Source of the DNA: Paraflavitalea sp. CAU 1676 | GTDB taxonomy: Bacteria > Bacteroidota > Bacteroidia > Chitinophagales > Chitinophagaceae | Assembly (NCBI RefSeq): GCF_029223285.1 | Contig: NZ_JARHUJ010000002.1 | Span: 868,001 to 932,000, forward strand | DNA length: 64,000 bases | Reading direction: 5' to 3' | Shown here: positions 8,848 to 54,700 of the stretch, one piece after another | Layout of the letters: each line of letters opens with the position of its first letter | Position numbering within the stretch: the stretch's first letter is position 1 | The notes under the pieces: model-generated | What the model saw: the letters and a program-made list of their open reading frames with translations, nothing else | Database searches by the model: none | Told to the model about the DNA's origin: nothing | Program-made: the position numbers and the translations under genes

Positions 8848-8874
8848 GCAGCTACCGATCGCAGCATAACGTTA

Positions 8875-8917: not shown

Positions 8918-9014
8918 CATTCGCATTACTGATCACGATTTTCGGAATTGATAACACCGGCCCGTATCGTTTATGAGTATTTGTTAGTATATTATGTTTC
9001 CAAAACCAAGTCAC

Positions 9015-21906: not shown

Positions 21907-22027
21907 TCATTACCGTATCCTCAACTCTTCAAACTTTCTCCCCAATCCATCCCAACTTATCATCAATTAGTGCATCTTGCGCCCAAATGGGGGTAATAGG
22001 AATTATCTTGCCCCCCGCGCGCGAGAC

Positions 22028-34847: not shown

Positions 34848-34939
34848 CACATTTATCGGCGATTTCGACACACTTATCGGTTATTCCTGCACAGTTACGA
34901 GGTTGTGCTAGGTGCATTGATTGGAATTACTGTTCTTTG
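34848..34939 (+). promoter_or_regulatory. LytTR-like triple direct repeat and promoter of the OmpA gene
   Basis: Three 12-bp direct repeats occur exactly 21 bp apart: CACATTTATCGG (34848-34859), CACACTTATCGG (34869-34880) and CACAGTTACGAG (34890-34901). A -7-like box GTTCTTTG (34932-34939) starts exactly 42 bp after the third repeat. LytTR regulators such as AgrA are known to bind 9-bp direct repeats with 12-bp spacers, that is a 21-bp period, so this looks like an activator array placed two helical turns per site. A matching array lies at 36481-36572. The ORF overlapping this region on the plus strand (34629-35048) is therefore rejected as coding. Confidence 0.7.
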
Positions 34940-35025
34940 TGTTCACTATTTCCAGCACTACCGCTACCCTGGGATTCATTTACATGATATACTAATAATT
35001 ACCTCACCTAAACCCGGTTGCGTTT

Positions 35026-36459
35026 ATGGGATTACCATATGCGTATAGAAAATTTTGTGCTGCTTTAAAATTCAAATTCATGGATTTACCTGTTTTTGAA
35101 TGTTTGATGTGCCCGCAACTCCGCGCCGGCCTGGTTTCAATCTTTATTTTCCTTTGTTCAACTTGTTATAGTCAATCCGATAACCAATTACAAAATCCGG
35201 TTTTCGGGGTTCATTATATATTAAATGATTTCAAATCGGCCCAGGCAATTCAGGCTACTTCTTTGCGAACAGCCTTGCGCAATAAGCAATTCGGTCAGTT
35301 GCGGCATATGTCGCAGGGACTCGCCTTGAATTATTTTACCGGAGTGGGCCGGCACTTCGATCTCAGTTCCACGTTAACCGGCTCTTTTCCCGACTATGCG
35401 GTTAAAAACAATTCGCAAGCCGGGAAAGGCAGCCTGCTCATTGAATTGGACGCCTCCATCAGGGCCAGGCTATTTAGTTGCCGGTATTACGTGACTCCCA
35501 TTTTTCAGGCTGGTGTCGGCGGGTCATATTATAAAGGATACTGGGGAGGCTTTATTCCCCTTGGTATAGGATTACAGGCAGAAATAATACCCGAAACTTT
35601 CCTGATAGCCAATGCCCAATACCGAATGGGTATTGGCGATAAAGGAAGTCATCATTTCTTCTACAGCATTGGTCTGGCCGGCACCATAGGCAAAAAGAAA
35701 AGCCCAGCCAGGGCTGTTCCTCTGCCGCCTACGCCTATGCCTATCCCACCATTGGATGCTGATGGCGACGGCATCGTTGATAGTGCAGATCATTGTCCGT
35801 TTCAAAAAGGGCTGGTGGTTTTTCATGGCTGTCCAGACCTGGATGGCGATAGTATTCCCGATAAAGATGACCATTGTCCGCACGAAAAAGGATTGCTTAA
35901 ATACCAGGGCTGCCCTATACCCGATACAGATGGCGACGGCATTCATGATGAAGCCGACAAATGTCCGCAGCTGCGGGGCCTGGCAGCATACCAGGGTTGT
36001 CCGCCCCCGGATGCTGACAATGACGGCGTTCCCAATGACCAGGATAAGTGTCCCGAACTTGCGGGAACAACCGGCAATCAGGGGTGCCCTGAAGTGCGGG
36101 ACGACATTCGAAGGAAGATCAATGTTGCGGCGCAGCATATTTTCTTCGGTACGGGGAGCGCCACTTTGCTTCAAAAATCTTTTAAATCGCTCGATGAGGT
36201 GATCAAGGTCATGACAGATGACCCACTCATCAAAATAGATATCGAAGGCCATACCGATAATATTGGTACAGCGGTCAGCAACCTGTTGCTAAGCCAACGG
36301 CGAGCTATGGCAGTGAGGACTTATTTTATTAATAAAGGAATAGCCGTAGAGCGCCTTAGCGCCAGCGGTTTTGGGGAGGATAAACCAGTGGCGGATAATA
36401 ATACGCCCAATGGTCGAACAGCCAACAGAAGGGTAGTGCTGAACCTGCGCTACCAATAG
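35026..36459 (+). CDS. OmpA-family outer-membrane protein with thrombospondin type 3 repeats
   Basis: This 477-residue protein begins MGLPYAYRKF and has a hydrophobic export signal ending near TCYSQ (residue 46); ATG 35080 (MDLPVF) is an alternative start. Residues about 55-235 form a beta-barrel-like region (GVGRHFDLSSTLTGSFPDY, AGVGGSYYKGYWGG). Residues about 243-350 carry four calcium-binding thrombospondin type 3 repeats (DADGDGIVDSADHCP and three variants ending GCP). Residues about 360-477 are an OmpA domain that binds peptidoglycan (IEGHTDNIG, ANRRVVLNL). It is an envelope-anchoring protein. It shares its control region and its first residues (MGLPYxYR) with the next gene, so the two are co-regulated. 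Confidence 0.92.
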   Translation: MGLPYAYRKFCAALKFKFMDLPVFECLMCPQLRAGLVSIFIFLCSTCYSQSDNQLQNPVFGVHYILNDFKSAQAIQATSLRTALRNKQFGQLRHMSQGLALNYFTGVGRHFDLSSTLTGSFPDYAVKNNSQAGKGSLLIELDASIRARLFSCRYYVTPIFQAGVGGSYYKGYWGGFIPLGIGLQAEIIPETFLIANAQYRMGIGDKGSHHFFYSIGLAGTIGKKKSPARAVPLPPTPMPIPPLDADGDGIVDSADHCPFQKGLVVFHGCPDLDGDSIPDKDDHCPHEKGLLKYQGCPIPDTDGDGIHDEADKCPQLRGLAAYQGCPPPDADNDGVPNDQDKCPELAGTTGNQGCPEVRDDIRRKINVAAQHIFFGTGSATLLQKSFKSLDEVIKVMTDDPLIKIDIEGHTDNIGTAVSNLLLSQRRAMAVRTYFINKGIAVERLSASGFGEDKPVADNNTPNGRTANRRVVLNLRYQ

Positions 36460-36480
36460 TGCTGTCGTTTTTTATGTTGC

Positions 36481-36572
36481 ACAGTTATTGCCGATTTCGA
36501 CGCACTTATCGGTCAAAACTGCACACTTACGGGTTTGTGCTTGTTGAAATAAAAGGATTGCCCGTTATTTGT
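36481..36572 (+). promoter_or_regulatory. LytTR-like triple direct repeat and promoter of the RHS operon
   Basis: This second array has the same geometry as 34848-34939: CACAGTTATTGC (36481-36492), CGCACTTATCGG (36502-36513) and CACACTTACGGG (36523-36534), each 21 bp apart. GTTATTTG (36565-36572) starts exactly 42 bp after the third repeat. The segment GATTTCGAC-R-CACTTATCGGT is shared with the other array. It stands in front of the outer-membrane barrel gene that heads the giant-protein operon, implying joint control by one regulator. Confidence 0.7.
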
Positions 36573-36640: not shown

Positions 36641-36683
36641 CCCCTAATCATTATTGTTAACTCAACCTAAACCGGCTGCGTGT

Positions 36684-39080
36684 ATGGGACTGCCATATCC
36701 GTATAGGATATCATATTGTTTAATCGTTCTGTTGATCAGTGTGCTGACTTCTGTCGGCGTGATGGCTCAACAGGGTGGCACGGTTGATACCTTGAAGAAG
36801 GCTCCCAGGTCCTCGCATACGGTAAGCGATACGCTACGTTCTGTAAAAGACTCCACGGTTAAGGCTGTCAAGACGCTTGCAGGTTACCAACGCAGCCAAT
36901 TGCAATCAACGCTCACCCCTAAAAAACAAGAACTCACTTCTCTTCCGGGTAAGGCAACTGCTGGTTTTACAGATTCCAGCGGACTGAACTTTAAGAAAAC
37001 CTTTAAAGGTATTTTGAAGGGCAAGCCTTCTTTATTACGTGACGACTCGCTGCGTATCAGCCTCAAAAATCCCTTCAATGATCTGCTGAAGGCCAAACCC
37101 TTGGTTAAACTGAACAGTGGATATGTTAGCTACCAGTTCAACTACCGGTCGGCCATCGATACCCCCTTTGTAGAGAAAGATATTACACAGCACAATTTAA
37201 CAGGCCACTTAAATGTATCGGTGGCGGGTCACCTGCCCGTGCGGGTTACCTTTTGGTCGCGCCAAAGCAATTCGAGTGTATTTCGGGATATTACTGATGT
37301 GCAGGCCTCTTTCGATGGTGCGGCCTTTCAGCAGCAGTTACAGAGCAGCCTGAAGAACCGCCTGATGGTGCTGGCGCCCAGCCTGCGCGACTCGCTGGCT
37401 GGCAGACTTTATGCGTTGAAGAAGATGGATCTTAACGGCCTCAAGTCTGATCTGCAGCAATTTAAGCCACAAGACCTCGCCGAAGCGCATGAGATAATAA
37501 ATGTACCACGTATTACCTGGAACCCTCAGTTGCCCGACAGCCTGAACCGGGCGCGGGAAGACTCGCTGAAAGTAGCCGCCAAACTACTGCTCGATCTGTA
37601 TGGTAACACCAAGGGCGCCTATGATAGTTTGTCGAAGAAGGTGGACTCGCTGAAGACGGTGTATGATGAGAGCCTGGCCAAAGTACAGCGCTTCAAAAAC
37701 ATGCTCAACGGTAAGTGGGACGAGCTCATCAACACCCGTCAATGGACGGACCGTTTGAAAGACTATGGCATGAGCAACGTGCAGGTACCCGCTAAATACC
37801 AGTGGCTGATGGGGCTGCGGCAGTTCAGCCTGGGACGGAATGTTTCCAACTACAGCGAACTTACTATCAAGAACACCAGTATCAATGGTATCAATTTCGA
37901 GTACAATTCCTGGTATTACCTCGCGGTGACAGCCGGCCTGGTCGACTATCGCTACCGCGATTTTGCCATCAATGGGTTTAATAAAAAGCCCCAATACTTT
38001 GCGATGCTACGGGCAGGTGTTGGCCGGCTGGAAAACAATTATCTTATTGCTTCGGTTTTCCAAGGGCAAAAACAGTTGTTCCCTTCCAACGGCTCTAAGA
38101 TCTCCAGCATCACGGTTACGGGCATCAGCCTGGAGGGACGTATGCGGCTCAACCCCACCACTTTTGTAACGGCTGAAGTGGCTAAGTCTTTATCCCCGGA
38201 TTTTCGTCACACGCCTTCACAAGGAAGTACCAAATTGTCGCTCGGCGACAACAGTAATCTCGCTTATGCTTTCAAAGCACAATCGACTTTGCCCGCTACG
38301 GGCACCCGGTTGGAAGGCTATTATAAACATACCGGCGCCAATTATCAATCCTTCAGCAGCTTCCAGACCAATGCGGCGCTGGAAAGCTGGAGTGTAAAGG
38401 CAGAACAAGGTTTCTTCAAACGCAGGTTGCGTCTTACGGCTTCGCTGCGAAGGAACGAATTCACTAACCCTTTCCTGCAACAGGATTACAATAGCAATAC
38501 GGTGTTCAAAAGCCTTACCGCTTCGTTCCGCATGCGGAAATGGCCGGTGATCACGATCGGTTATCAGCCGATGAGTCAGCTGACGGCTATCGATAGTCAG
38601 GTGGTGGAAAATAGATTTCAAGTTTTGAATGCTACCGGATTTCATACTTACAAGCTGGGTTCGTTCCGCACGGCTTCCACGCTGGTGATCGGTCGCTTTT
38701 ACAATACCAGCCGCGATACGGGTTTCGTGTATTACAATGCCACCAATGTGTTCTGGGCGCAACAGTTCTTCTTCACTGCTTTTGCCGCGCAGACGTCGGT
38801 GTCGTTTACGCAGAACTCGGGTTACCGACTGGTGGTGCTGGAGGAGGGAATTCAATTGAATCTTAAAAAGCTGGGTTCGGTAGGCCTGGGTGTCAAGATC
38901 AATAACCTCAATGATGAGGTCTTTAAATCGGGCGCCTATGTCAATGCCAATATCCGGGTCTATAAACAGGATTTTATCACCTTGAGTTATGACCGGGGTT
39001 ATTTGCCGGGCTTTCATAAAAATCTAGTCCGCAACGAGATGGCAACGGTTCAGTTTGTCAAGAGTTTCGGCTTTCAATAA
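36684..39080 (+). CDS. Large outer-membrane beta-barrel-type protein heading the RHS operon
   Basis: This 798-residue protein starts at ATG 36684 (MGLPYPYR), matching the start of the OmpA protein; an in-frame TTG at 36654 is less likely. The signal peptide ends near GVMAQQ. Residues about 40-130 are Ser/Thr/Lys-rich. Then come a beta domain (SGYVSYQFNYRSAIDTPF, HLPVRVTFWSRQS), an alpha-helical hairpin of about 150 residues (KKVDSLKTVYDESLAKVQRF), and a long beta-strand-rich C-terminal half whose last strand ends in phenylalanine plus one residue (FVKSFGFQ), as outer-membrane barrels do. I know no characterised homologue. Its place ahead of the giant RHS genes makes it a candidate export channel or surface anchor for them. 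Confidence 0.75.
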   Translation: MGLPYPYRISYCLIVLLISVLTSVGVMAQQGGTVDTLKKAPRSSHTVSDTLRSVKDSTVKAVKTLAGYQRSQLQSTLTPKKQELTSLPGKATAGFTDSSGLNFKKTFKGILKGKPSLLRDDSLRISLKNPFNDLLKAKPLVKLNSGYVSYQFNYRSAIDTPFVEKDITQHNLTGHLNVSVAGHLPVRVTFWSRQSNSSVFRDITDVQASFDGAAFQQQLQSSLKNRLMVLAPSLRDSLAGRLYALKKMDLNGLKSDLQQFKPQDLAEAHEIINVPRITWNPQLPDSLNRAREDSLKVAAKLLLDLYGNTKGAYDSLSKKVDSLKTVYDESLAKVQRFKNMLNGKWDELINTRQWTDRLKDYGMSNVQVPAKYQWLMGLRQFSLGRNVSNYSELTIKNTSINGINFEYNSWYYLAVTAGLVDYRYRDFAINGFNKKPQYFAMLRAGVGRLENNYLIASVFQGQKQLFPSNGSKISSITVTGISLEGRMRLNPTTFVTAEVAKSLSPDFRHTPSQGSTKLSLGDNSNLAYAFKAQSTLPATGTRLEGYYKHTGANYQSFSSFQTNAALESWSVKAEQGFFKRRLRLTASLRRNEFTNPFLQQDYNSNTVFKSLTASFRMRKWPVITIGYQPMSQLTAIDSQVVENRFQVLNATGFHTYKLGSFRTASTLVIGRFYNTSRDTGFVYYNATNVFWAQQFFFTAFAAQTSVSFTQNSGYRLVVLEEGIQLNLKKLGSVGLGVKINNLNDEVFKSGAYVNANIRVYKQDFITLSYDRGYLPGFHKNLVRNEMATVQFVKSFGFQ

Positions 39081-39097
39081 CACAGTAACTAAGTACT

Positions 39098-40210
39098 ATG
39101 AAGAAAATATATCTGATGAGCTTATGGCTGCTGGCCTTTCAGTTGGGTTACAGCCAGGTAGTGTTGAATCTGCAGCTGCCGCCAATGGGATTAACGATCA
39201 AACCGCAATTATGGAACCTTTCGCTGGTGAATACTTCGAAGGTGAACATGGAAGTGCGGATCGAAATGGTGATGACCAATGTTACGACCAACCAGCGGGT
39301 GCTCACGGGTACCTCCAAATCGGTGCTGTTGATGAAGGGCATCAAGCAATTTCAGCTGCAGGACCTGATGCCCATCACCTACAATGTGGGAAGTGGCGGA
39401 TATGGAATGGATCCATCTCCGGAAGGCTTTTTGCCAACGGGTGTGTACACGATCTGTTATTCGGTGCTGGCCGTGCAAAATGAAGGGGTCGAAAAGATCG
39501 CCGAGGAGTGTGAAACGATCGAGATAGAACCGATCAGTCCGCCCCAGCTGATGATCCCTATGGATGAAGAAAAGGTAGAGATCACCCGCCCTTTCTTTGC
39601 ATGGATACCGCCATCGCCAATCGCTACTTTAAACTCGATGTTGTACGATTGGGTGTTGGTGGAAGTGCAGCCTACGCAAAGTGCGGCGGATGCGGTGCAG
39701 CAGAATGTGCCGCTGTTGAGCCGGTCAAATCTTTCGTTCACCAATTTTCAGTATCCCTTATCCTCGCCAGAGCTTGACACATCGAAGCTGTATGCCTGGC
39801 GGATTACCGCCAAGAACAACCTGACGCCTGTCGGGAATAGTGAGGTATGGAGTTTTAGAGTGAGGCTGTTTGGCTTCGACAGCACCCTTATCAAAACCGG
39901 TGGAGAATATTTTACCAAACTCAGGAGAGAAGAAGATGCGGCCTATATCATTTGCTCCGGCGTTTTGCACTATGAGTACCTGAACGAGTTGAATGACACG
40001 CAGGTCTCTATCAAGTTATTTGATATCAGCGATGCGCAACGTAGAGAAATTGGACTCGACTCTGCGAGCAGGCCGGTGCAGTTTGGTCAAAACTTCAACC
40101 TGCTCGATCTGCGCCAGCTTTCGGGCATGAAGGATAAACATATGTACCTGCTGGAAGTCATGAACGCCAAAAGAGAGAAATGGTACCTGAAGTTTGAGTA
40201 CCGGGAGTAA
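39098..40210 (+). CDS. Secreted Ig/FN3-like protein of the RHS operon
   Basis: This 370-residue exported protein has a signal peptide (MKKIYLMSLWLLAFQLGYSQ). Residues about 20-150 form a beta domain (SKVNMEVRIEMVMTN, GVYTICYSVLAVQNEGVEKI). Residues about 160-280 look like a fibronectin-III-like module (RPFFAWIPPSP, LYAWRITAKNN, SEVWSFRVRLF). The last 90 residues are of unknown fold. It starts 17 bp after the barrel gene and is likely co-transcribed. Proteins of this type sit between an outer-membrane protein and giant YD proteins in Bacteroidota, and may act as periplasmic or surface adaptor. That role is inference. Confidence 0.75.
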   Translation: MKKIYLMSLWLLAFQLGYSQVVLNLQLPPMGLTIKPQLWNLSLVNTSKVNMEVRIEMVMTNVTTNQRVLTGTSKSVLLMKGIKQFQLQDLMPITYNVGSGGYGMDPSPEGFLPTGVYTICYSVLAVQNEGVEKIAEECETIEIEPISPPQLMIPMDEEKVEITRPFFAWIPPSPIATLNSMLYDWVLVEVQPTQSAADAVQQNVPLLSRSNLSFTNFQYPLSSPELDTSKLYAWRITAKNNLTPVGNSEVWSFRVRLFGFDSTLIKTGGEYFTKLRREEDAAYIICSGVLHYEYLNELNDTQVSIKLFDISDAQRREIGLDSASRPVQFGQNFNLLDLRQLSGMKDKHMYLLEVMNAKREKWYLKFEYRE

Positions 40211-40334: not shown

Positions 40335-43300
40335 ATGATAGTTTCCCTTGTCCGATACCACAAACCGATTGCCTGGTTATTTACGGGCCTCTTTTACCTG
40401 GAGCTGGTACTTACCCCAGTGGCGGCCAACGCGGCTATGCGGAAGTCGATACCGCTGCCGCACCGTTATAGTGCTCCGGCTGCAGACAATCTGCGCATGG
40501 CAAAAGCGAACAGTCCGGCCAATGGCCTGTCTGCTTTAAGCCTTTCTGATCCTTCTGCAGCCATCGAGCCGAAGTCGGCTTCCGCTACCGGGGTAACTAC
40601 ACCAGCTTCTGCTGTGGCGTTGACGCCGCTGACCGGATCCGTTTCAACGGGGCAGCAAGCTCCTGCTGCTGTTCGCCAGCCATTTACAACCGGCCCCACG
40701 CAACCGGAGATGCAGAGCTTTCAATCCGTGAACGCCAGTAATATGGTGGACCTGTTCACCGGAGATTTCTCGTATAATATTCCTCTTTTGGATGTAGGTG
40801 GTTACCCGGTGAACCTGCACTATAGCAGTGGTATAACCATGGACCAGGAGGCCAGCTGGGTGGGGCTCGGGTGGAATATCAACCCCGGCACGATCACCCG
40901 GAACATGCGGGGATTGCCGGACGACTTCCAGGGTAAGGAAGATGCCGTGACAAAAACAGTGAGCATGAAGCCGAACAAGACTTTTGGCGTTACCATCGGT
41001 GGCAACATTGAGCTGCTGGGTAAAAGTCAGTTTGCCGGGGCAAGCAAGGTTGTTGACAGCTCGAAAGGCAGACTGGGTTCGCTGGGGGCATCATTCGGAT
41101 TGTTCCACAACACTTACAAGGGATGGGGCACGGAAACCGGCCTCAACGTGAGCATCAACTCCGGTTTGGGTGCTGCGGGCGGGCTTACCAGTTCTTTGTC
41201 TCTGACCAATAATTCGCAAAGCGGCCTTGATATAAGCCCTTCTTTCAGTTACCATATGGGAAAAAATGAAAGCAAAACGAGGGGGGAGATTTCCATAGGC
41301 ACCAATTATAATTCGCGGCTTGGCATACAGGAGTTACAGATCACCGGGCAGGTGAGGCAGCATATTTTCAGTTACCAATCGCAGAGTAAAAGTACAGGCG
41401 TTGCGCTTCCGTCCTATATTTCATTTGCAAAGCCTTCATATACACCAACAATCACTGTTCCATATACTTCAAACCAGCAGTCTTATACTGCTAAAGTGGG
41501 TACGGAACATTGGGCCCTGCACCCGAACGGTTATATGCGGGGATATCTGTCCAAGCAGGAAATTGATCCGAAGGACAGAGAGCTGGCTGTTCCTTCATAT
41601 GGGTATCTATACTACGACAAAAAAGGAGATGACGCCAATGTGCTGCTGGACTTTAACCGGGAGAAGGATATTTCCTTTAACCAGGAGACGCCGCATATAG
41701 CGATGCCTATTTATACATATGACACCTATTCGATCAGTGGTGAAGGTACGGGAGGCATGTTCAGGCCTTACCGGGGGGATATTGGTTTTGTGCACGACCA
41801 TATCATGTCGACAAAAAGCAAAAGCGACCGCCTTTCAGTGGATATTGGCCTGGGTACGGTGGTGCATGGCGGAGTAGATTTTACGCATAATGACAGTAAA
41901 ACCACCAGCGGACCATGGTTGAATGATAATCATTTGAAAGATGTGGTCCGTTTCAGGGCGCAGGATGCCAAATTTGAGAACGTATACTTTAAGAACCCCG
42001 GAGAGAAAACTGTCGTCAATAGTACATTTCTCAACAGCATTGGTGGTGATAGCCTGGTTCGCGTTGACCTGTCGCCCCTGAATGCACAGCAGCTACCGAC
42101 CTTCCAGGCGACGCGTAACCTGTCGGTGTTCAGCAACAGCAAGCTGGCGCGCAAAGTGCCCATTACCGATACAACCTATCGCCGGGAGCGTGACAAGCGT
42201 ACGCAGGTGATCTCTTACCTGACTGCTTTCGAAGCTTCGAAAGTGGGGTTGGATACGATGATCAAATCATTTGGGTTAAATCAATTTCCCGGAAACACCT
42301 GCAGCCCCAGTTATAGCCTGACCCACCGGGTGGGATCGATACGCAAGGCCCATCACCTTTCGGAGATCACCGTTTTGAATGGAGACGGCAGGCGTTATGT
42401 ATATGGTATTCCTGTGTATAATAAGTCACAGACGGAAGTAACGATGTCTGTGGACAGAAAGGGAAATGCCAGTACAGGGCAGGTTGAATACAATGAAGAA
42501 GAAAATTCAGTCGACAATAAATCCGGCAAAGAGGGATACTACAACAAGGAGTTAATGCCGGCTTATGCGCATTCGTTCCTGTTGTCGGGTATTTTATCGC
42601 CCGACTATGCCGACCTGACCAATGACGGTATTACTGAAGACGATAACGGCGAAGCCATTAAGTTCAACTATACACAGATCTATACGACCGATAATCCATA
42701 CCGGTGGCGGGCTCCTTATGGCTCCGTAGCTATGCAGGCGGCTTACAATGAAGGGCTGAAGACGGATTCCCGGGATGAGCGCGCCAGCTTTTCCTACGGC
42801 GAGCGTGATGTATGGTACCTGAACTCCATCGAGTCCAAAACAATGGTGGCCACCTTTGTGGTGGAGACGGACTCGTTGCGCCAGGATGGGTTTGGTGTTA
42901 AGGGACTGAATGGGGAGCAAGATCTTACTCAAAAATTGTACAGGCTTAAACAGATCAACCTGTATACCAAATCAGATTACTTAAAGAACGGCACCAACGC
43001 CAAGCCCATCAAGACGGTTCATTTTGGCTATAGTTATGATCTTTGCAAGGGTAACCCGGGATCTGCCAATACCGGCAAACTGACGTTGACGAAAGTTTGG
43101 TTTACCTATAATAAGAACAACAAAGGTGCGTTGAACCCCTATGTATTCAAGTACAGCGGTAAAAATCCAGGATTTGCGCCCGGGCAGGCCGACCGGTGGG
43201 GCAGCTATAAAAACCCCGCTAAAAACCCCGGCAATGGCACCGCGCTTACCAATGCGGATTATTCGTATACCCTGCAGGAAAGCACTACCTGGACTGCAGA

Positions 43301-46300
43301 CAGTGCGGCCGCCTATGCGGCTCCGTGGACGCTGACGGATGTGACGCTTCCTACGGGTGGCAATATCAAAGTGAGCTATGAGAGCGATGACTATGCTTAT
43401 GTGCAGAACAAGCGGGCGATGCAGTTTTTCAATATTGCCGGTTTCGGAGCTACACCAACGGGTGTTATTACGCCTAATCTTACTAAATGGGGCGAGACAG
43501 AGGACTACTTCCATGTTTTCATTAATCTCAAGGACGCCGTAAGCTCCAGGGCTGATTTTGAAAGAAAATACCTGGAGGGAGTAAATCAGCTCTACTTTAA
43601 AATAGCCGTAAATGTACCGGGGGATACCTGGGGCAGCGGTTATGAGTTTATTCCCTGTTATGCTGAAATAGAGAATTTTGATATCAAGCCTGGTACTGAG
43701 AATAAAACTGTCTGGATCCAGGTGAAAAAGACGCCGGAAGGATACAGCCCAATGGCAACAGCGGCAGTGCAGTTCCTGCGACTCAATCTTCCGAGTAAGG
43801 CTTATCCCTTCTCCGAACCAGGTGACAATTTCAACCTCAAGAATGTATTGGGTATGCTGGCTTCGGTGGCAGCAAATATCAGGAACACGGTTGCCGGCTT
43901 CCCGGCGGCCGCGCGCCGTGGTAACCGCATGAATGTGGTTGAAACAGATAAATCCTTTGTGCGGCTCAATAACCCGGTGTACAGGAAGTTTGGTGGTGGG
44001 CTGCGTGTGAAAAGGGTAGAGGTGAAAGACAACTGGAAAAAGATGACGGACTCTGCGCAGGTAGAATCGACCTATGGTCAGGACTACACGTATACTACCG
44101 AAGTTAAGGTGGACGGAACGCCGGTGACGATCAGCAGCGGGGTGGCCAGTTACGAGCCAACCCTTGGCGGTGATGAAAACCCATTCCATGTTCCCCTGAA
44201 AGTGTGGAAGGAGAAAACAGGCAAATTGGCGCCTACGGATTACCTGTATTCCGAAGAGCCGTTTGGCGAAACCTTTTTCCCGGCCCCGATGGTGGGATAC
44301 AGCAAAGTAAAGGTCCAAACGATCCACAGGAAGAAGAAGTCGGCCAACGGATTTGATGTGTCGGAATTCTATACGTCGAAAGACTTCCCTACGATCGTCG
44401 AATACACGCCGATCGATAACGAAACCAAGAAGACCTTTAACCCGCCGATCAACAATGTATTCAAGTTCAATGCCCACAATGATGTAACCCTGTCGCAGGG
44501 CTTCAAAGTGGAACTGAATGACATGAACGGGAAGTCAAAATCGCAATCATCCTTTTCGCAAACCGATTCAGTTCGCCCTATTAACTATACTTATAATTAC
44601 TACCGGCTCGAGAACGACAATGCTTTTCAACCGAAATTGTCGAACAGGGTGACGGTGGTCGATAGTGCGAATGGCGTGCTTCGTTCAAATGCAGAAATAG
44701 GCAAGGAAGTGGACATCATGATCGACCTGCGCGAACAGATCTCTGTGGCCGAGGGCGGTAATGTGGAAGCCAATGTGGACTGGGTGCATGCCTGGCCACC
44801 GATCTTCTGGTTCCCGATGGTGCCTTTGCCTACCAAGGAAACCAATATGTACCGGTCGGTAGCTGTTACCAAAGTGGTGAACCGATATGGTATACTGGAT
44901 AGTGTGATACACCTCGAAAAGGGGAGCAGGGTCACTACCCGCGACCTGGTATACGACGCTGAGACGGGCGCTACTTTGGTAAACCAGACCAATAACGAGT
45001 TTGACGATCCGATATACAGTTTTAACTATCCGGCACATTGGGCTTATAGCGGTATGGGCTCGGCCTATAAAAATATCGGGGCGACCCTCACCCCAAAGAC
45101 CGTTAAGCAGGGTATCATGTATAACCTGGACGGTAGCCTGTTTGATGCTGCCGGCTATTTCGAGAGCGGTGATGAAATGTTGGTGGCTGCCCGGGATGAG
45201 CGTAATAGCTCAACGACCGATGACTGCTCACCACTGTATTATATCTACAACAACAAAACCAGTTATAAGCGACTATGGGCTATTGACGCATCTAAAGGCT
45301 ACCAGAACAAGAAGGGGGTTTATTTTATCGACACGGCCGGCAGGCCCTATAACGGCGAGATCGCGACCCTGAAGATCATCCGGTCGGGCAAACGGAATAT
45401 GCAGGCAACAGCGCTGGGGTCAGTGACATCGCTTATAAGCCCCATCAAAAACGTGGGAGGCAAGGACCGTATCGTCATTGACTCAACGGCTGAAGTAATA
45501 GCTTCCAACGCGGTTCGATTCAAAGACCTGTGGAAAGTTGACAATGTGTGGAAGATGTATGATAGCTGTGTAACGGAATATAAGAGCTTCAGCGACGGAG
45601 AATGGTCGAACCGCCACATTAAGACCGTCGCCCTGCTTCGTCAGCATATAAAGGACAGGACGATTACTAACACGATCGACAATAGCTACAATAAGATTGT
45701 CGTCAGCTGGCAACGCTTTAATAAAGATGAGTTCAGGACCAGGAGCCTGATCCAGCTGGACCTTTCTGATGTACCCACAGGGGCTATTATTACCCATGCC
45801 CGACTGGATCTTTTTGGAGACCCTCCGAAAAATATGTGGCAGCACAATCCCTGGGTTAATCCAACTGTTTCCTATGAGGGCATAGGTGAGCGCGTTGAAG
45901 GAAGAGTGTCGCGGTATCCATTCGCGTTCTATGGGAATGAATTGAATTTTCCTTGGGTCACAGAGAAAAGCATCCATGATGCCGCCGGCACCACGGCACG
46001 CCTTCCTTGGCGTGGCTTTTTCAACAACTGCTATAATGATACCGTGAACATTACTTCCATTATTCAGAACATGCTCACGCTTTCTCCTGAATATCAAAGC
46101 CTTATTGTAAAGCTGGATACTGAAGCCCCTATGGGAGATGGCAAGTATCCCGTTCGTTATATGAGTTATAAAGGCAAAACGGCTGTGTGGAACCCCTATA
46201 AATGTAGTCAAGTCCCTTGCGTCGACGCCTGCGGAGCGTCGGTCATACTGAGCTACACTTATCCTGTCCAGAGATGTTACCAGGTATGCCGCTCGGAAGT

Positions 46301-47957
46301 GATCAATAAAGATACCCTGAACCCTTACCGGTATGGCATACTCGGCAACTGGCGGGTAGATACCGCTTTCACGTATTACGGCGCAAGAAAGCAATCTGTT
46401 ACGGCAACCGCTACCAATATCCGGACAGATGGCGCTATTAAGGATTTCCTGCCCTATTGGAAGTTCAACTCCAGTAGTTTACAAGCCGCACCAGACTCTA
46501 CCCGCTGGGTATGGAACAGCAAAACAACGCTGGTGAATGGTAAAGGCGCGGAAATTGAAAGCAAAGATCCACTCGGCCGCTACAATGCGGGACTCTATGG
46601 TTACAACAATACCTTACCGATCGCGGTGGCACAAAACAGCCGTTTGCGGGAAATAACCTTTGAGGGTTTTGAAGACAGGGATTACAAGAGTAATCCGTGT
46701 GTTAACTGCAGCGACAACGGCTGGATCAAGGCAAAGCAGGGAAGCATTTCGCCAAATATCAGTCATAGCGGCAGCGCCAGCTTCCGGGTGAATACCAACG
46801 GCCGGGATACTACAAAGGTTGCCATCGGTACAGCAGCATCGGACACCGTGTCTACCAAAGTCTCTCTGCAGGTTGATTCGATACCAATCGTGAAACAAAC
46901 TGTGACGCCTAAAGGCAATGGTCTTCTTACACAATACGGAACATTTTATGCTTCCTGGGGGCGCAATATAAACAGGTGTGTGGGCCATGATATACCCTGG
47001 AACCAGACTGAATGGTCTTCCCAAACGGCCATATCAACCCCCAACCAGCAATGGCCGGAGAAAAAAGGGCCCGGGCCCCTTTGTGCGGGCTGGTACTATA
47101 CGGTAAAGTGGACGGGCAAACTGCAACCGGAATTAAGCGGCGCATACCGGTTCAAAATCGATGTGGATGACGAAGTGGTCTTTAAAATAAACGGCGCCAT
47201 CATCCTGGCGTATGAAGGAACTGGACCCAAAACTATTGAAACCACTACACGGGTCATGCTCAATGCCGGTCAGTTATATGATGTGGAACTGATCGTGAGA
47301 AACAATCGTGGTCCGGGTGGTATTAATCTGTACTGGGCAAAATCCTGGGTTGAAATAGACCATCCGGTGCCTGTTACTTCCTGGTACCAGAATGCGACGC
47401 AGGCCAACGGTTCGGTGGTTAATGATACGACCTGGTGTGTGAAATTCAGGAACCCGGTACCGGTGAACGCTATCCACCAGAAATTTACTCCTGTGCAGGG
47501 CAGTAAAATGGTGTTCAGCGCCTGGGTAAAAGAGGAAGTGCCTTGCGCGGCCGGCAGCAGCTACAACAGCGGCCAGGTACGGCTCACCTTCAACAACGGC
47601 AGTGGTGTAAGTTATGTGCTGAAGCCTAAAGGTAATATCATCGAAGGATGGCAGCGGATAGAGGAGGTCGTTGATATACCAGCCAATGTAACGGAGATGA
47701 ATGTGTTCCTGGAAACTGGCGGTATAGCAGCCTATTTTGATGACTTGCGCATGCATCCTTTCAGCAGCAATATGAAGTCGTTCGTGTATGATCCCGTAAA
47801 CCTGCGCCTGATGGCTGAACTGGATGAGAATAACCATGCTACCTTTTATGAATACGACGACGAAGGAACGCTGATCCGTGTCAAGAAGGAAACCGAACGG
47901 GGTATCAAGACGATACGGGAAACCAGAAGCGCCACTCTTAAACCTATAAACAATTGA
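40335..47957 (+). CDS. Giant SpvB-like/PA14 surface protein without RHS tip
   Basis: This 2540-residue exported protein begins with a membrane-spanning signal (IAWLFTGLFYLELVLTPVAANAA). Residues about 125-190 read NMVDLFTGDFSYNIPLLDVG, WVGLGWNINPGTITRNM, the SpvB-like start of giant Bacteroidota YD-type proteins. A long beta-rich body follows. Residues about 2195-2350 are a PA14 domain, a glycan-binding fold (LLTQYGTFYASW, GWYYTVKWTGKL, YRFKIDVDDEVVFKINGAII), then a carbohydrate-binding-like domain. It ends with a single YD-type motif (TFYEYDDEGTLIRVKKETERG) and no RHS core or toxin tip. It is followed after 4 bp by a small secreted protein and then the RHS giant, so it may be the shell half of a two-protein complex. 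Confidence 0.88.
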   Translation: MIVSLVRYHKPIAWLFTGLFYLELVLTPVAANAAMRKSIPLPHRYSAPAADNLRMAKANSPANGLSALSLSDPSAAIEPKSASATGVTTPASAVALTPLTGSVSTGQQAPAAVRQPFTTGPTQPEMQSFQSVNASNMVDLFTGDFSYNIPLLDVGGYPVNLHYSSGITMDQEASWVGLGWNINPGTITRNMRGLPDDFQGKEDAVTKTVSMKPNKTFGVTIGGNIELLGKSQFAGASKVVDSSKGRLGSLGASFGLFHNTYKGWGTETGLNVSINSGLGAAGGLTSSLSLTNNSQSGLDISPSFSYHMGKNESKTRGEISIGTNYNSRLGIQELQITGQVRQHIFSYQSQSKSTGVALPSYISFAKPSYTPTITVPYTSNQQSYTAKVGTEHWALHPNGYMRGYLSKQEIDPKDRELAVPSYGYLYYDKKGDDANVLLDFNREKDISFNQETPHIAMPIYTYDTYSISGEGTGGMFRPYRGDIGFVHDHIMSTKSKSDRLSVDIGLGTVVHGGVDFTHNDSKTTSGPWLNDNHLKDVVRFRAQDAKFENVYFKNPGEKTVVNSTFLNSIGGDSLVRVDLSPLNAQQLPTFQATRNLSVFSNSKLARKVPITDTTYRRERDKRTQVISYLTAFEASKVGLDTMIKSFGLNQFPGNTCSPSYSLTHRVGSIRKAHHLSEITVLNGDGRRYVYGIPVYNKSQTEVTMSVDRKGNASTGQVEYNEEENSVDNKSGKEGYYNKELMPAYAHSFLLSGILSPDYADLTNDGITEDDNGEAIKFNYTQIYTTDNPYRWRAPYGSVAMQAAYNEGLKTDSRDERASFSYGERDVWYLNSIESKTMVATFVVETDSLRQDGFGVKGLNGEQDLTQKLYRLKQINLYTKSDYLKNGTNAKPIKTVHFGYSYDLCKGNPGSANTGKLTLTKVWFTYNKNNKGALNPYVFKYSGKNPGFAPGQADRWGSYKNPAKNPGNGTALTNADYSYTLQESTTWTADSAAAYAAPWTLTDVTLPTGGNIKVSYESDDYAYVQNKRAMQFFNIAGFGATPTGVITPNLTKWGETEDYFHVFINLKDAVSSRADFERKYLEGVNQLYFKIAVNVPGDTWGSGYEFIPCYAEIENFDIKPGTENKTVWIQVKKTPEGYSPMATAAVQFLRLNLPSKAYPFSEPGDNFNLKNVLGMLASVAANIRNTVAGFPAAARRGNRMNVVETDKSFVRLNNPVYRKFGGGLRVKRVEVKDNWKKMTDSAQVESTYGQDYTYTTEVKVDGTPVTISSGVASYEPTLGGDENPFHVPLKVWKEKTGKLAPTDYLYSEEPFGETFFPAPMVGYSKVKVQTIHRKKKSANGFDVSEFYTSKDFPTIVEYTPIDNETKKTFNPPINNVFKFNAHNDVTLSQGFKVELNDMNGKSKSQSSFSQTDSVRPINYTYNYYRLENDNAFQPKLSNRVTVVDSANGVLRSNAEIGKEVDIMIDLREQISVAEGGNVEANVDWVHAWPPIFWFPMVPLPTKETNMYRSVAVTKVVNRYGILDSVIHLEKGSRVTTRDLVYDAETGATLVNQTNNEFDDPIYSFNYPAHWAYSGMGSAYKNIGATLTPKTVKQGIMYNLDGSLFDAAGYFESGDEMLVAARDERNSSTTDDCSPLYYIYNNKTSYKRLWAIDASKGYQNKKGVYFIDTAGRPYNGEIATLKIIRSGKRNMQATALGSVTSLISPIKNVGGKDRIVIDSTAEVIASNAVRFKDLWKVDNVWKMYDSCVTEYKSFSDGEWSNRHIKTVALLRQHIKDRTITNTIDNSYNKIVVSWQRFNKDEFRTRSLIQLDLSDVPTGAIITHARLDLFGDPPKNMWQHNPWVNPTVSYEGIGERVEGRVSRYPFAFYGNELNFPWVTEKSIHDAAGTTARLPWRGFFNNCYNDTVNITSIIQNMLTLSPEYQSLIVKLDTEAPMGDGKYPVRYMSYKGKTAVWNPYKCSQVPCVDACGASVILSYTYPVQRCYQVCRSEVINKDTLNPYRYGILGNWRVDTAFTYYGARKQSVTATATNIRTDGAIKDFLPYWKFNSSSLQAAPDSTRWVWNSKTTLVNGKGAEIESKDPLGRYNAGLYGYNNTLPIAVAQNSRLREITFEGFEDRDYKSNPCVNCSDNGWIKAKQGSISPNISHSGSASFRVNTNGRDTTKVAIGTAASDTVSTKVSLQVDSIPIVKQTVTPKGNGLLTQYGTFYASWGRNINRCVGHDIPWNQTEWSSQTAISTPNQQWPEKKGPGPLCAGWYYTVKWTGKLQPELSGAYRFKIDVDDEVVFKINGAIILAYEGTGPKTIETTTRVMLNAGQLYDVELIVRNNRGPGGINLYWAKSWVEIDHPVPVTSWYQNATQANGSVVNDTTWCVKFRNPVPVNAIHQKFTPVQGSKMVFSAWVKEEVPCAAGSSYNSGQVRLTFNNGSGVSYVLKPKGNIIEGWQRIEEVVDIPANVTEMNVFLETGGIAAYFDDLRMHPFSSNMKSFVYDPVNLRLMAELDENNHATFYEYDDEGTLIRVKKETERGIKTIRETRSATLKPINN

Positions 47958-47961
47958 TGTC

Positions 47962-48735
47962 ATGAAAACACTATTATATACCATAGTTACCATCCTACTG
48001 ATCTCCACAGGCGCTACCAGTGCCTGTGGAGCCGACCGGGAACGGCCGCTTACCGATACCACCAGCGCTTATCCTGCACTGAGGGAATTGGAGGCCATAT
48101 ATGAAAACGGTGCGTTCGCTATCGCGGGTTATTACGTTCGGAAAACGACAGATAGTATTGGAGTGACCACTGATTCTATGAGTTATGGTTTTTCAAACTG
48201 GCGTAGCCTGTTCGCTGTGAATCTTTTCAATATCCTGACGCCAGGCCCCAATTATGACATTTATACTATCCAGACTGATCTTGAAAATGCCGTCATAGAC
48301 CGGGCTAATCAATTCATTACGATCAATAAACGGATATCGATCATGGAGGCGCTGTTTCAGTTGAACCTGTTGGATCCTTGGTTCCAGGAAGAACACGTGC
48401 AGCGGATGTATATGGTGGATACGCTGGATGGTTATGCCAGGGTGATCAAGCTAGACTTCAAACCGGAATCACCTTATTCGAAATTTGAACTCTGTTTCAG
48501 CGCCGTAGCTAAACAGCCCTTGGAGCTGACTGTCGTCACGAAAAAGGCAAATGAAAACGGTACGGAAGGTTACGACCAAATCAAAATTACCTATACTTCT
48601 TGGTTCGAGTTCGATGTGGATGGCGATTACTCTTCCGCTTACACCACCGAAGTTTTTTACACCCGCATCAATGGACAATATGTTCTAAAACCTTTTTACG
48701 CGAATTACGATTTCCTGAACACCAGTATATACTAA
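47962..48735 (+). CDS. Secreted protein between the two giants, unknown
   Basis: This 257-residue protein has a signal peptide (MKTLLYTIVTILLISTGATS, cut just before or after ACGA; Cys22 could be lipidated but the lipobox is poor). The mature part is mixed alpha/beta with ELEAIYENGAFAIAGYYVRK and YSKFELCFSAVAKQPLEL segments and no known motif. It starts 4 bp after one giant gene and ends 13 bp before the other, so it is surely part of the operon. A chaperone or connecting subunit for the two giants is a reasonable guess, no more. Confidence 0.65.
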   Translation: MKTLLYTIVTILLISTGATSACGADRERPLTDTTSAYPALRELEAIYENGAFAIAGYYVRKTTDSIGVTTDSMSYGFSNWRSLFAVNLFNILTPGPNYDIYTIQTDLENAVIDRANQFITINKRISIMEALFQLNLLDPWFQEEHVQRMYMVDTLDGYARVIKLDFKPESPYSKFELCFSAVAKQPLELTVVTKKANENGTEGYDQIKITYTSWFEFDVDGDYSSAYTTEVFYTRINGQYVLKPFYANYDFLNTSIY

Positions 48736-48748
48736 TTAAACCTAAGTC

Positions 48749-51700
48749 ATGAAGCGTCTATCTCTATATACCGGTTTGTTGTTGGGTCTTTGCCTTTTGC
48801 TGCAAACCAACCTCTATGCCACCAATGAACCCTATGCTGCCAAACCGCTCAAAGGGAATCAGCTACGGGTTGATTCTTTCAGTATTGTTTCAGATACGAC
48901 TTACATCAGGCCCGAACTAAGGCCAACGCAAACAACCTTCAAGGTGCGCAACCTGATCACTTTTAAGATCAATGAGTTTGCCAACCTGTTGTTGCCTAAT
49001 AGTTTTAGCTGTACGATCAATCTGAAGATCAACTATACCAAAAACGGATCCAATAACCAGCCTGCGTCCGACTCCTTTGTCAATGTTCCCTTGACAATCG
49101 GGTACGACAAGAACGGCGTATACCAGCAGAAGGCCATTTATACCTTTTTGGGCGGCCATGAGGTGAAAGTGAAGATCACCAATATCAGCGCGAACTTTGC
49201 TACGTTGGCGCAAATTGAAAACTCCCTGATGCTGGAGAATGAACTATTCGTTACGCGCGAATATAATTTCAGCTGCACCGACAATGCCATCAAGACCCTG
49301 AATAGCCCTAGCTTTAAAAATGATAAGGGGGAGCTGGAAGTGAGCTGGATGGGTGATCGCAGGGCAGATGAGTATGACCTGGAGTGGACGTACATCGACG
49401 AACTGGCGCTCGCCAATTACCGGAATCCTTCGGATACCACGCAGTATTATCGCGACCAGATATTCAAGAGGAATGCTACCCGGGTAAGTATTACCCAGAC
49501 AAAGTACCTGGTTCCCATGGTCTATGACGGTGCCGGCAGGTTGTGTTACCGGGTACGTGCTGTTCAAACCAAGGCCAACGGACAGCGGATCGAATCTGCC
49601 TGGAGCACGGATTATACGTCGGGCTTTGGCATGTTCCCATTCGGCGGGCATGAAAATAAATACAACTGGCAGGCTACTACCAGTTTTGCAGAGGAAGGTA
49701 AAAGGAAAACCGTGGTGCAGTATTTCGACGGCTCTCTGCGTAACCGGCAAACGGTGACCAAGGACAATACGACCGATACCACGCTGGTGGCCGAGACCTT
49801 TTATGATTTTCAGGGCAGGCCGGCCATCCAGGTACTGCCTACGCCGACCTTGAGCGGCATCATTGGCTTTACGCCCAATTTCAATTCACCCCTTAACGTA
49901 GCGGAGTACAGTAAAGATATGTATGATGGCGATCTGGAAGACTCCTGTTATTGTAAGGAGGGGGCGCCGCAAATGGATACGTTGAAAGGTGCCTCCCGGT
50001 ACTATTCACAGAACAACCCGCTGGTGAATACGGGTATACATAAGAATATTCCGGAGGCGAAGGGTTTTCCTTTTGCGGAAACCCGTTATACGCCCGATAA
50101 TACGGGGCGGTTGAGTATGCAGAGTGGAGTAGGGCCGGCTTTCCGGATCGATTCCGGCAGGGCTACCCGTTATTACTACAGTTCGGCCGAACAGGAAGAG
50201 CTGGATGCTTTGTTCGGGACGGAAGTGGGTAATGCTGCTCATTACTTCAAGAACATGGTTAGGGATGCAAATGGTCAGTACAGCATCAGTTATGTTGACA
50301 TGCATGGCCGTACCATTGCCACGGCGTTGGCAGGTATGCCAGACGCTAAGTTGGATCTGCTGGCATCAAACCAACCCTTGTCCATTAAAAAGAAGTTGAT
50401 CGATAGTTCAACGAATGTAATCAAGGGTACCAGTATCGTGTCGACTAAAGGGTTGATCGTAGCCAAAAGAGGTAAACATGTGTTTTATTATTCCTTATTA
50501 CCCGACAGTATCAATATCAAGGATAAGAACAATGTAAATGTTTGCTACGATTGCAGCTATGATCTGGAGATCACCATCACAGACGACTGCAACAATTCGA
50601 CGCTTCCGAATGATCAGCCATATATTATCAGGGCAAACAACCTGACCCTCGATACGCTTTGCAATCCCAATACACTTTTCCCGGGTGCACAGGGACTTAA
50701 GGATTCGCTGGTCCTGGATCCTGGTAACTATACGATCACAAAGACGTTGACCATCAGTCAGCAATCGATGGACCGTTACCGGGAAATATTCATTCGCCGC
50801 AATACCGTCAAAACCCTCGATCAGTTCATTGCCGAACAAAAGGCCTCTCTTATTCTGCAATGCCAGCCTAGCTGCGAGTCGTGTAAAACGGCGCTGGGCA
50901 CCTGGGATACCTTCAGGCCGGATTATATGCAGCGTATGGGTATTCCTACTGCCGATACTGCCAACTATCGTACGGCCGCCCTGAACGCCTGGACAAATTT
51001 ATCGCTGGCTTGTGAGGACCTTTGCCTTGGTCGCACGATCGACAAAACGTACCGGGCGCAAATGCTGGCAGACATGACTCCGTCCAGTGGGCAGTATATG
51101 GATCCGGCAAATGATGATGATCCATACTCTGTATTATTTGCTCATGGTAAAATGAGTTACAGAAACATCCAATTCAAGGATGAAAATGGTAATCCGGATG
51201 CCCTCAACCCACATAGACTCCCGGTAGCCGACTTTGTCGCAAAGTTTAAGGCTTCCTGGGCGGAATCGCTGTTGACCATACACCCGGAATACCATAAGTT
51301 GACATTGTTTGAAAGCTGGAAAGCCAGCCATGAATGGGATCTTCGATTTGAAAATACGGAAACCTACCAGGCAGCTGTCGATAGTGGCTACCTGAACCCG
51401 GCCAATTTCTCCGGCTTACCTGCACATGCCCGCTACGCCTATGTTTCACAAAGGGCTGATCCCTTCTTTACAAGCTTGCGGACAAGTGCTAAGTCCGTAA
51501 TGAGCGACTCGCTGTTCAATGCTGCGAAAGTAGAAGGTGAACCGGCCATCAGCGCCTGGGCGCTGGCGACCATCATGGCACATTGTAAAGATGGAGATGA
51601 AAGTTGCCGGCAAACATATTCGTCGTTGAGCCAGGCGTTCACGATGGATGCTGCCTGCAGTGGAGAACTGGATGTTGCCTGGCGGTATTTCCGTGAAATG

Positions 51701-54700
51701 TACCTCCAGAAGAAGCGGGAGATCATGGACAATATCATGACAGCCTATGCACTGGATCAACTACGTGGCCAGGACAACTATTACAGCAAGCTGGTGGAAG
51801 CTGGTCACGCCCTTGTATTCCCCAGCAAAGAGATGCTGAAAACTCCGGGTGAAGAACCTATGCCCGAAACGCCCCAGCAGGGCCAGGCAGGCATCGAAGC
51901 TTTCGTGCTTGATAATTGCACTGCTTATGCATTGCAGTGGTGGAATGAGATGAAGCCTTGTAATTTCAGTGTGACCGATTCGGTGAGCATCATCACGCGG
52001 CTCATCCAGGTATGTAAAGAGGGGGGTGATGAGAACCATATGTTTGGCGCCAGTACGGTTAAACCTTCCAGCACGAACCTCGACAGGAGTTTCGAACAGG
52101 TCATGAAAGCTTATGCCGGCAGTAACTACGGCAAAGCCTGTAACGTGTACCTGATCACTGCTCCCTTGCCTTATGAGCGACAACCTATCTTATATGAAAA
52201 GCCGCTGATGCAGAAACCCGACAGCTGCGAATGCGCTACTATCGGCAAGCTGTACGATAAATACCTGGCGGCGGCGGCAGACGCCAATTTCTCCGACTTC
52301 CTGTATCGCACAACCAGTACGAGGATCTACCAGGGTGTGTTGGATACCCTTCGAATGGCTTGCAATAACCAGATCAATTGCAACATGCTGAAGGAGCCGC
52401 TGAGCCTGCCGCCTGTATTGCAGTGTGGCGGTGGTGAGGAAGTTTGCGTAACCTGCGTAGGCATCGACACCCTGTATACAAAATACAAACAGGAGTTCCC
52501 GACTGCTTTGCCGGTGTACGCACCGGCTGATGACGCGCAACGTGCTAATAACCTCTTGTTCGAGCGGTTTATGAATTCCGCCTTGGGATTTGCCAAAAAC
52601 AGCGCGGAGTATCTTGATTTTATAGCCTCTTGCGGACCTATTGCCAATGACGAATACTGTAATGTGGCCCTTGCTTATGGTGGCAATGCTGCCAAGCGCC
52701 GGGTGACCATCCCAGTTCGCAATAGGAGATTAAAACTGGGTAAAGGCGACTTTACCATCGAGGCGCGCATAAAGCCCAAAGCTAATGGTTCCATTAACCA
52801 GATCATGTCGAACCGGACCTATGTGAGCGGTTCCAATGCAAACGGGTTCAGCTTCCTGGTATTAAGCAATAGCCGGCTGTTGTTCCAGCTGCAGGGCTGC
52901 TTCAATTACCAGGTTACGACTACTGCCGGCATTGACATGTATGATGGCAAGCCGCACCATGTGGCAGTGAGCAGGAAAGGAGATTCTTTAGGATTTTATA
53001 TGGATGGCATTAAACTGCCCTATTCCTACGACTGTACGGATGGGGCGCTGACCACACCGCCATCTCAACGGGATATCAGTACGGATGGCCCGTGGTATAT
53101 CGGATTCGATTCTGCCCACAATAGTTCGACCACTTATGGCTTCAATGGCTGGATCGATGAGGTGAGGATGTGGAATGTGGCCCGTACCCAAGAGCAGATC
53201 AATGCAACCAGGAATGTGAAGCTGTCGCCGCAAGCGAACCTAGTGGGTTACTATTTGCTGCGCAGCAAGGATACCTGTACACAAGTGCTTACCGACTATT
53301 CTATTATCGACACTGTACTCAAAAACAATGGTTATCTGGGCAAGTCATCGGCGAAAGACAACTATGATGCCATTTGGCAATCTAAAACGCAGGTGTCGTA
53401 TGTAGCTGCTGATCCTGTAGGAGTTACAAACACCTGTAACTGCAGCGGGCCGACGCCTGATCCTGAAAAGGAAACGTTGCGCTACCTGCTGGATGAGTAC
53501 AAGAAGTACGGTGGTATACCGCATCTTGATGCCAGTGGTGCAGATACCACGCGCTGGAGGCCAAACTTTGGAGGGATCAGGTACAAACTGGGCGTTCCGT
53601 TTGCCGACGTAGTCAGCAATGGCGTATTATCCTTACCCCGGAACTATTCCGATACTTTGCCCGATGCATTCCCATATAAAAATGTTGATTTGGACTTTTA
53701 TGACACGCTGTGTTTCGATCCTGCCGGGTTCGACATTGAATGGCGCATCAAACAGCCAGATAGCGTAGATATAACCAACAGCTATCATGACAAGTTCTGG
53801 CTTTTTGCGATTTCCAAAAATCAGCCTAGTGGCACAGTGTTGGGTTCCATTAAATACGCGGACAATGGGGCTGCCATTTGTACACACCACGGTTTACCGA
53901 GCATGGTCTGTACGCCCGAGATGGTGCCCATACAATCGTTGGAAGACTGGCGACTGCTCAAATTCGAATTCCGGGGAACCCGTTTCCGGTTCTATATCGA
54001 CAATACGTTACTCGGCGAAAAAACACTGGACGCGCCGATGACTGTTTTCGAAGGTCTTTCCACCGTGTGTTATTCGCAGCGTACCCAGATAGACTTTATA
54101 AAGATCAGGGATGTGCAGGGTAGGCTGATCTACAATGAAGAGTTCAATGACCCATGGCACCTGGCGATCCCTACCCGCTCGGTGGAATGTGAAGGTTGCG
54201 AGCCCAATTTTGCGGCTTACTACAATCAAAAACGTAGTACCAGCTTAACGTACAGTCAGATTGCAACGCTGTATCAGCAGGCTGGCATTCGCCTAGCGGC
54301 TTGTACGCCGGAGGAACTCACCCTGTGCGGACGTGCAGAACCTTCCTTCCCGCCGGTGAAGGTGGTGCAGCATACCGCCTGTGATGATTCTACTTTGTTT
54401 GCGGTATCGAAGGGCACTTTGCTGTATGAAGCTTACCGCGATTCTTTGATCGGTAGTTTCAATGACAAGTATCTCGCGAAGTGTCTTAATGCGCGGTATA
54501 ACGAGACCTTTACGGTGGACCAGCCGGTAAGCGAATACCACTACACGCTGTATTACTATGATCAGGCCGGCAACCTGGTGAAGACGGTTTCACCTGCTGG
54601 TGTTGATGTAAGCAAGTTTGCCTGGGCAGCTGCTTACAGCGATACGGTGAGGTTGGCCCGCCGCAACAGGCAATCGAAAACGCCCAATCACAAGCTCTAT

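Follow-up and report, generated by a model that had tools for sequence, protein, structure and literature searches.

A three-unit repeat array before envelope and RHS genes looks like a recurrent promoter switch in Paraflavitalea and its relatives, probably read by a LytTR-type activator

The window, by which we mean the whole stretch of 64,000 nucleotides analysed from the 8.84-Mb genome of Paraflavitalea sp. CAU 1676, carries two arrays of three repeat units, the first ahead of a gene for an outer-membrane protein and the second ahead of an RHS surface operon. The parts are as follows.

34848..34868, forward strand: array 1, unit 1, CACATTTATCGG with its spacer, a pattern match
34869..34889, forward strand: array 1, unit 2, CACACTTATCGG with its spacer, a pattern match
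34890..34910, forward strand: array 1, unit 3, CACAGTTACGAG, which leads into AGGTTGT at 34900-34906
34932..34939, forward strand: GTTCTTTG, probable -7 promoter element of array 1, from the sequence profile
35005..35048, forward strand: end of the leader and first codons of the OmpA-domain gene, resembling 36663-36706
35026..36459, forward strand: gene behind array 1 for an outer-membrane protein with an OmpA domain and thrombospondin type 3 repeats
36480..36500, forward strand: array 2, unit 1, CACAGTTATTGC with its spacer, a pattern match
36501..36521, forward strand: array 2, unit 2, CGCACTTATCGG with its spacer, a pattern match
36522..36542, forward strand: array 2, unit 3, CACACTTACGGG, with GGTTTGT inside it at 36532-36538
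36540-36543, forward strand: CTTG, a weak -33 candidate of array 2, from the sequence
36564..36571, forward strand: GTTATTTG, probable -7 promoter element of array 2, from the sequence profile
36663..36706, forward strand: end of the leader and first codons of the 798-aa gene, counterpart of 35005-35048
36684..39080, forward strand: gene for a 798-aa protein, an open frame, first behind array 2
39098..40210, forward strand: gene for a 370-aa protein, the conserved next gene, with no Pfam or NCBIfam match
40335..47957, forward strand: gene for a 2540-aa protein with a PA14 domain, by domain match
47962..48735, forward strand: gene for a 257-aa protein with a weak LolA3-like match far below the cut-off
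48749..57823, forward strand: gene for a 3024-aa RHS-core protein with a LamG domain and a weak DUF6443 match, by domain match

A search of PDB sequences found no relative of the 370-aa or the 798-aa protein. The wider neighbourhood holds two sortilin-type T9SS-tailed secreted proteins (5356-11981) followed by a TonB-dependent receptor (12006-14234), and a 2007-aa RHS protein that combines FG-GAP repeats with an SpvB and a TcdB-middle domain (15324-21347), with a Tdi1-type immunity gene farther along (24935-25429). Two tandem LytS-type histidine kinases (PF06580) are encoded at 21977-24147, some 10.7 kb before array 1. No LytTR domain was found in the window, and they are possible sensors for an unlinked regulator.

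The geometry of the two arrays is identical. Units begin at 34848, 34869 and 34890 in array 1 and at 36480, 36501 and 36522 in array 2, the 21-bp steps being exact in both, just as an earlier note on this DNA had claimed; likewise, GTTCTTTG and GTTATTTG both lie 42 bp past the start of the third unit, where that note had placed a GTTMTTTG box. AGGTTGT in array 1 is the counterpart of a conserved GGTTTGT, which array 2 carries unaltered. The distance between the arrays, given earlier as 1633 bp, measures 1632 bp and is not meaningful, since in genome G002 an OmpA-like gene likewise stands between two arrays, there 3002 bp apart (L194). It is the spacing within the array, not the single motif, that stands out. 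With up to two mismatches allowed, the 12-mer matches the window 114 times against 102.4 +/- 9.8 in shuffled sequence, a number that 19 of 100 shuffles reach, so single 12-mer motifs carry no weight. Conversely, CACANTTA repeated three times at 21-bp steps with up to three mismatches is found at 15 places in the genome, against none for the reversed control; one of these (L043) is a shifted register of another (L034), and three (L043, L044 and L045) have three mismatches. Thus, where the earlier note had asked whether the motif is scattered at random or spaced, enrichment is seen genome-wide for the spaced triple and not, in the window, for the motif alone.

The twin arrays are also more alike than most. 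They are 81% identical over 63 bp, whereas 903 pairs of genus arrays average 67% (sd 7%) and 4.2% of those pairs reach the twins' value. The similarity of 35005-35048 to 36663-36706 may be the trace of a duplicated promoter-leader module. Both likenesses would follow from a local duplication whose geometry was preserved afterwards, and the pair probably arose in this way. The earlier argument that preserved spacing speaks for selection and not for chance duplication therefore stands in one respect, in that the geometry is kept across the genus, but the window pair itself looks duplicated.

All five genus genomes, our own included, contain arrays at up to two mismatches (12, 7, 8, 8 and 8; control 0). 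Those of G002 and G004 are identical to arrays of Paraflavitalea pollutisoli (L070) and Niastella sp. BIN41 (L058/L095), indicating that these are the same organisms. Among 195 genomes of the family, searched at up to one mismatch, eight match, as do three for the reversed control (G051, G082 and G180). The eight comprise three of the genus, G177, two of genus g72, and G110 and G176, whose matches were judged by eye to be tandem repeats. Two further genera of the family therefore carry arrays, g72 (two arrays in one genome and one in the other) and the genus of G177, which is distinct from our own; G177, whose arrays are those of a Pseudobacter record, has seven, and two of its congeners have none. 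Across 84,980 species, exact matches occur in 67 stretches, seven of them in Niastella, Paraflavitalea or Pseudobacter; most of the other 60 resemble tandem minisatellites, as judged by eye only. No two-unit promoters emerged from a pattern of two units plus GGTTTGT, all 12 matches of which lie within 11 known three-unit arrays. One array, at C5:27551, shares its position with an open frame, so that its role as a promoter is doubtful. At G000:C17:274240 (L045, L124), two perfect units and a weak first one stand before the gene for a 1102-aa CBM96/PKD protein with a T9SS tail, possibly a degenerate array. Taken together, the arrays look like copies of one promoter switch, present about ten times per genome in this bacterial group.

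Aligning the 43 genus arrays, with the 10 arrays of other genera set aside, gave a profile of the unit and of what follows it. The unit consensus is tGCACAnTTAYnG, with conservation across nearly 21 bp, and in units 1 and 2 the positions +14 to +17 form an AT-tract, 86-100% of the letters there being A or T. Behind unit 3 a GGTTTGT-like element at +10 to +16 takes the place of this tract, with T at +13 in 43 of 43 arrays and TTTG at +12 in 34 of 43 (0 of 10 in other genera). Farther on, positions +41 to +47 are conserved as well, with T at +46 in 93% of the arrays, and neither element was part of the search pattern. The profile contains no fourth unit upstream.

Matches to at least four of the six letters of TAnnTTTG occur at +40 to +43 in 36 of the 43 arrays, compared with a mean of 10.3 and a largest value of 19 in 500 letter shuffles, and the best match anywhere over +17 to +79 falls at +40 to +43 in 18.6 of 43 (ties shared), against 1.9 per four other offsets. 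Bacteroidota sigma-A promoters, as set out in the available text of PMC9723704 and PMC7366714, combine a -33 TTTG with a -7 TAnnTTTG, and the box 42 bp past the third unit fits the latter. The GTTMTTTG box of the earlier note most likely represents the -7 element of a Bacteroidota promoter. Placing it at -12 to -5, the position given in the same portion of PMC9723704, would set the transcription start near +54 of the third unit, with units 2 and 3 centred near -60; in the window, the predicted starts fall near 34944 and 36576. The promoters depart from the published form in a -33 element that is weak or displaced. The GGTTTGT element, including the TTTG found at +12 in most genus arrays, is about 25 bp from the -7 box, beyond the spacing of the named positions, and TTG occurs within +18 to +23 in 20 of 43 arrays.

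The genes behind the arrays recur as well. We compared the frames behind 53 arrays (43 from the genus and 10 from other genera) with 18 reference proteins of our own genome. The giant operon of the window (798/370/2540/257/3024 aa) recurs behind L163, L169, L172, L183, L186, L194 and L197, with first-gene identities of 56-65%, such relatives of the 798-aa protein standing behind arrays in G001-G004 and in G177; a more distant form (22-34%) is found behind L182 and L189. Large RHS proteins follow L114, L117, L119, L170, L178, L184, L195 and L201, and LamG proteins follow L113, L176, L192 and, partly, L196. Viewed from the side of the genes, 16 of the 33 DUF6443/RHS genes of the five genus genomes (one of them below the family cut-off) lie within 20 kb downstream of an array on the same strand, where 0.33 would be expected; one of 33 lies in the reverse order and none on the opposite strand. 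As orthologous loci are not independent cases, the fairer figure is that of our own genome alone, where four of six meet this description, against an expected 0.08. In G177, which belongs to another genus, six of seven arrays precede relatives of the genus targets (L172, L174, L175, L176, L177 and L178), though the cases of L174 and L175, both at contig ends, are weak, and L173 lacks a target relative. The proposal that such an array controls envelope and RHS genes is thereby borne out to the extent that the triple counts, conservation within the genus and the nature of the targets strongly support a conserved operator array upstream of these genes.

Protein-coding genes may not be the only targets. 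Behind six arrays (L116 in our own genome, L167, L177, L185, L190 and L200) no frame of at least 70 aa starts on the array's strand within about 3 kb; each is instead followed by a stretch of 84-92 nt whose middle part is conserved and which is predicted to form a terminator hairpin. We regard this stretch as a candidate small RNA, which in our own genome occupies C6:44547-44638, directly behind array L116. No shared open frame was found in the candidates, and Rfam gave no match in seven loci, including three of these six. A covariance model found the candidate in four of the 195 family genomes, one copy each and always immediately after an array; all four genomes are in the training set, so the search added no copy to those already known. 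Among these 195 genomes it was found in array-bearing ones only, and the model did not find it in the array-bearing g72 genomes. A second candidate small RNA of about 131 nt, with a GC-rich terminator, lies just behind L165, L187 and L198, and at L118 of our own genome a 213-aa frame separates the array from a stretch related to it.

The LytTR repeat consensus is [TA][AC][CA]GTTN[AG][TG], to which the core of the array unit, ACA[CG]TTA, is a near match; its fourth base is C in 60-70% and G in 19-40%, so that many units carry C where AgrA and Pln sites have G, and the conserved unit spans about 21 bp as against a 9-bp LytTR core. As described in the accessible sections of the papers, LytTR sites are 9-bp direct repeats with mostly 12-bp spacers just upstream of -35 (PMC6193735, PMC2714321), TACGTTAAT being a published repeat (PMC2714321), and the AgrA pair is centred near -60 (PMC4227749). 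The arrays share the 21-22 bp period of LytTR promoters (a 9-bp repeat and a 12-13 bp spacer), and their position directly upstream of a predicted promoter, with units 2 and 3 centred near -60 of the predicted start, also corresponds. They resemble AgrA and Pln/LRS-type sites in being direct repeats with this spacing just upstream of a promoter (PMC4227749, PMC2714321, PMC6193735), but those sites have two repeats, another promoter type and often a regulator gene in the same locus, whereas the arrays have three repeats, a Bacteroidota promoter and no linked regulator that we found. Closer in number are the operators of the LytTR proteins RcoM1 and CoxC, which, in the available part of PMC11347149, use three imperfect direct repeats at the promoter, with spacers of 12-13 bp in RcoM1, an arrangement that the arrays match. 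Their repeat, TTCNNGCA/TTNNNGCN, nevertheless differs from tGCACAnTTAYnG with its AT-tract spacers (the array unit does not conform to TTNNNGCN), CoxC has a carbon monoxide sensor of its own in its N-terminal domain, and the arrays, unlike either operator, are dispersed over about ten promoters.

Our own genome encodes 59 LytTR domains. A LytTR gene was present in the flanks of one of 51 strong-array loci (L188, 6.6 kb away), the flanks searched being short and extending, for most loci outside our own genome, some 1 kb upstream; for the weak arrays L123 and L124 such a gene lies 2.7 and 2.9 kb away. Many LytTR promoters, though not all, have a linked or autoregulated regulator gene; linkage was therefore seen in that one strong-array locus, and no autoregulatory array came to light. 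A search near LytTR genes for two units with up to four mismatches revealed no clear array apart from L124: our own loci gave two matches (both at L124, that is C17:274240, one of them perfect), G177 and G153 none, and the array-free G105 and G006 four and one, all with four mismatches. Phylogenetic profiles, in which the LytTR sets of our own genome (59), G177 (32) and G153 (27) were compared with those of the array-free G105 (42) and G006 (29 of 32), gave L021, L233, L247, L014 and the L016/L234/L011 group as candidates. In a family-wide search of four of these, L021, L233, L247 and L016, orthologues of each also occurred in genomes that have no array at up to one mismatch. L021 (C12:548681) separates best, with 75-86% identity in five sampled other array genomes and at most 67% elsewhere, and is a lead only. 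A histidine kinase/LytTR pair 2.3 kb before the window (L022) was set aside, its G105 orthologue being 64% identical and its best G177 match 49% and not reciprocal. In the open-licence literature we found no paper on LytTR direct-repeat binding sites in Bacteroidetes, nor one joining LytTR and Chitinophaga, or Rhs and Bacteroidetes; for Niastella regulons only microbiome papers came up, whereas papers touching on LytTR and binding in Flavobacterium do exist. Because linkage, autoregulation and phylogenetic profiles singled out none of the LytTR proteins, we infer the LytTR identity from geometry and sequence, for which a LytTR-type activator is the best reading. Of the LytTR regulon envisaged in the earlier note, the 21-bp geometry, the sequence and the promoter position fit, and the tie to any one of the 59 domains did not materialize.

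The geometry, its conservation across species and genera, the conserved distance to the promoter box and the target classes are what the sequences show, and we consider the following account of them likely. Each array would serve as an activator operator, with a weak promoter of the Bacteroidota sigma-A type immediately behind it. Three copies of a LytTR-domain regulator, most probably a response regulator encoded elsewhere, would occupy the three units side by side on a single face of the helix, 21 bp being two helical turns, with the AT-tracts between units aiding bending. The third unit and the GGTTTGT element would bring the regulator to RNA polymerase, which would use the TAnnTTTG-like -7 box and start about 54 bp after the third unit begins. 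One signal could in this way turn on a dispersed regulon of about ten transcripts. Within the window these would be that of the OmpA-domain gene and, as a transcript of its own, the RHS surface operon (798/370/2540/257/3024 aa); outside it they would include further RHS/DUF6443 operons, genes for secreted LamG and T9SS-tailed proteins, and the small RNA.

The same operator could be read by a regulator of another family that recognizes direct repeats two helical turns apart, an alternative that we judge unlikely. AraC/XylS-type proteins, for example, use 15-bp boxes with a 21-bp repeat distance; the array unit starts with TGCA, and its conservation extends over most of 21 bp, beyond the 9-bp LytTR core; no LytTR protein could be tied to the arrays; and an AraC-family gene lies in the window at 29095-29931. 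Yet the second block of the unit is an A-or-T tract, more suggestive of bending than of base reading, which gives way to another element behind unit 3, the location relative to the promoter is the one expected of LytTR activators, and the core ACA[CG]TTA resembles published LytTR repeats (TACGTTAAT, in the consulted portion of PMC2714321). Slightly less probable still, in our estimation, is that the arrays are repressor operators. CoxC, itself a three-repeat LytTR regulator, represses from repeats overlapping -35, according to the available part of PMC11347149, and GGTTTGT touches the third unit; set against this, both probable promoter elements, -33 and -7, follow the units, an arrangement in which by the same text most LytTR proteins activate, and the promoter boxes look weak. 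That we are dealing with a scattered minisatellite or mobile repeat devoid of a regulatory role, as the duplicated look of the window pair and the minisatellite-like exact matches outside the three genera might suggest, is highly improbable and was already disfavored, given that units within an array differ while their number stays at three, that the promoter-box distance is fixed and that target genes recur across genera.

We retain as likely the reading of the array as an operator for an activator, probably of the LytTR type, in which 'switching on' would be the role of the three units, and in which the genes under control would encode large surface and toxin-like proteins and a likely small RNA. 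To our knowledge, little is known of how RHS/DUF6443 and giant surface operons are controlled in Bacteroidota. An operator with fixed promoter geometry makes the regulon readable from sequence in this group and its start sites predictable, and provides a direct probe with which to fish for the regulator, while the candidate small RNA, coupled as it is to arrays, hints at control after transcription as well. It is tempting to speculate, and we do so tentatively, that one unlinked regulator acting through three-unit arrays may co-activate a whole contact or attack programme in Niastella-type bacteria, which would take in several polymorphic RHS toxin operons alongside the giant secreted RHS surface operon, together with lectin-like proteins that are secreted and a small RNA of its own.
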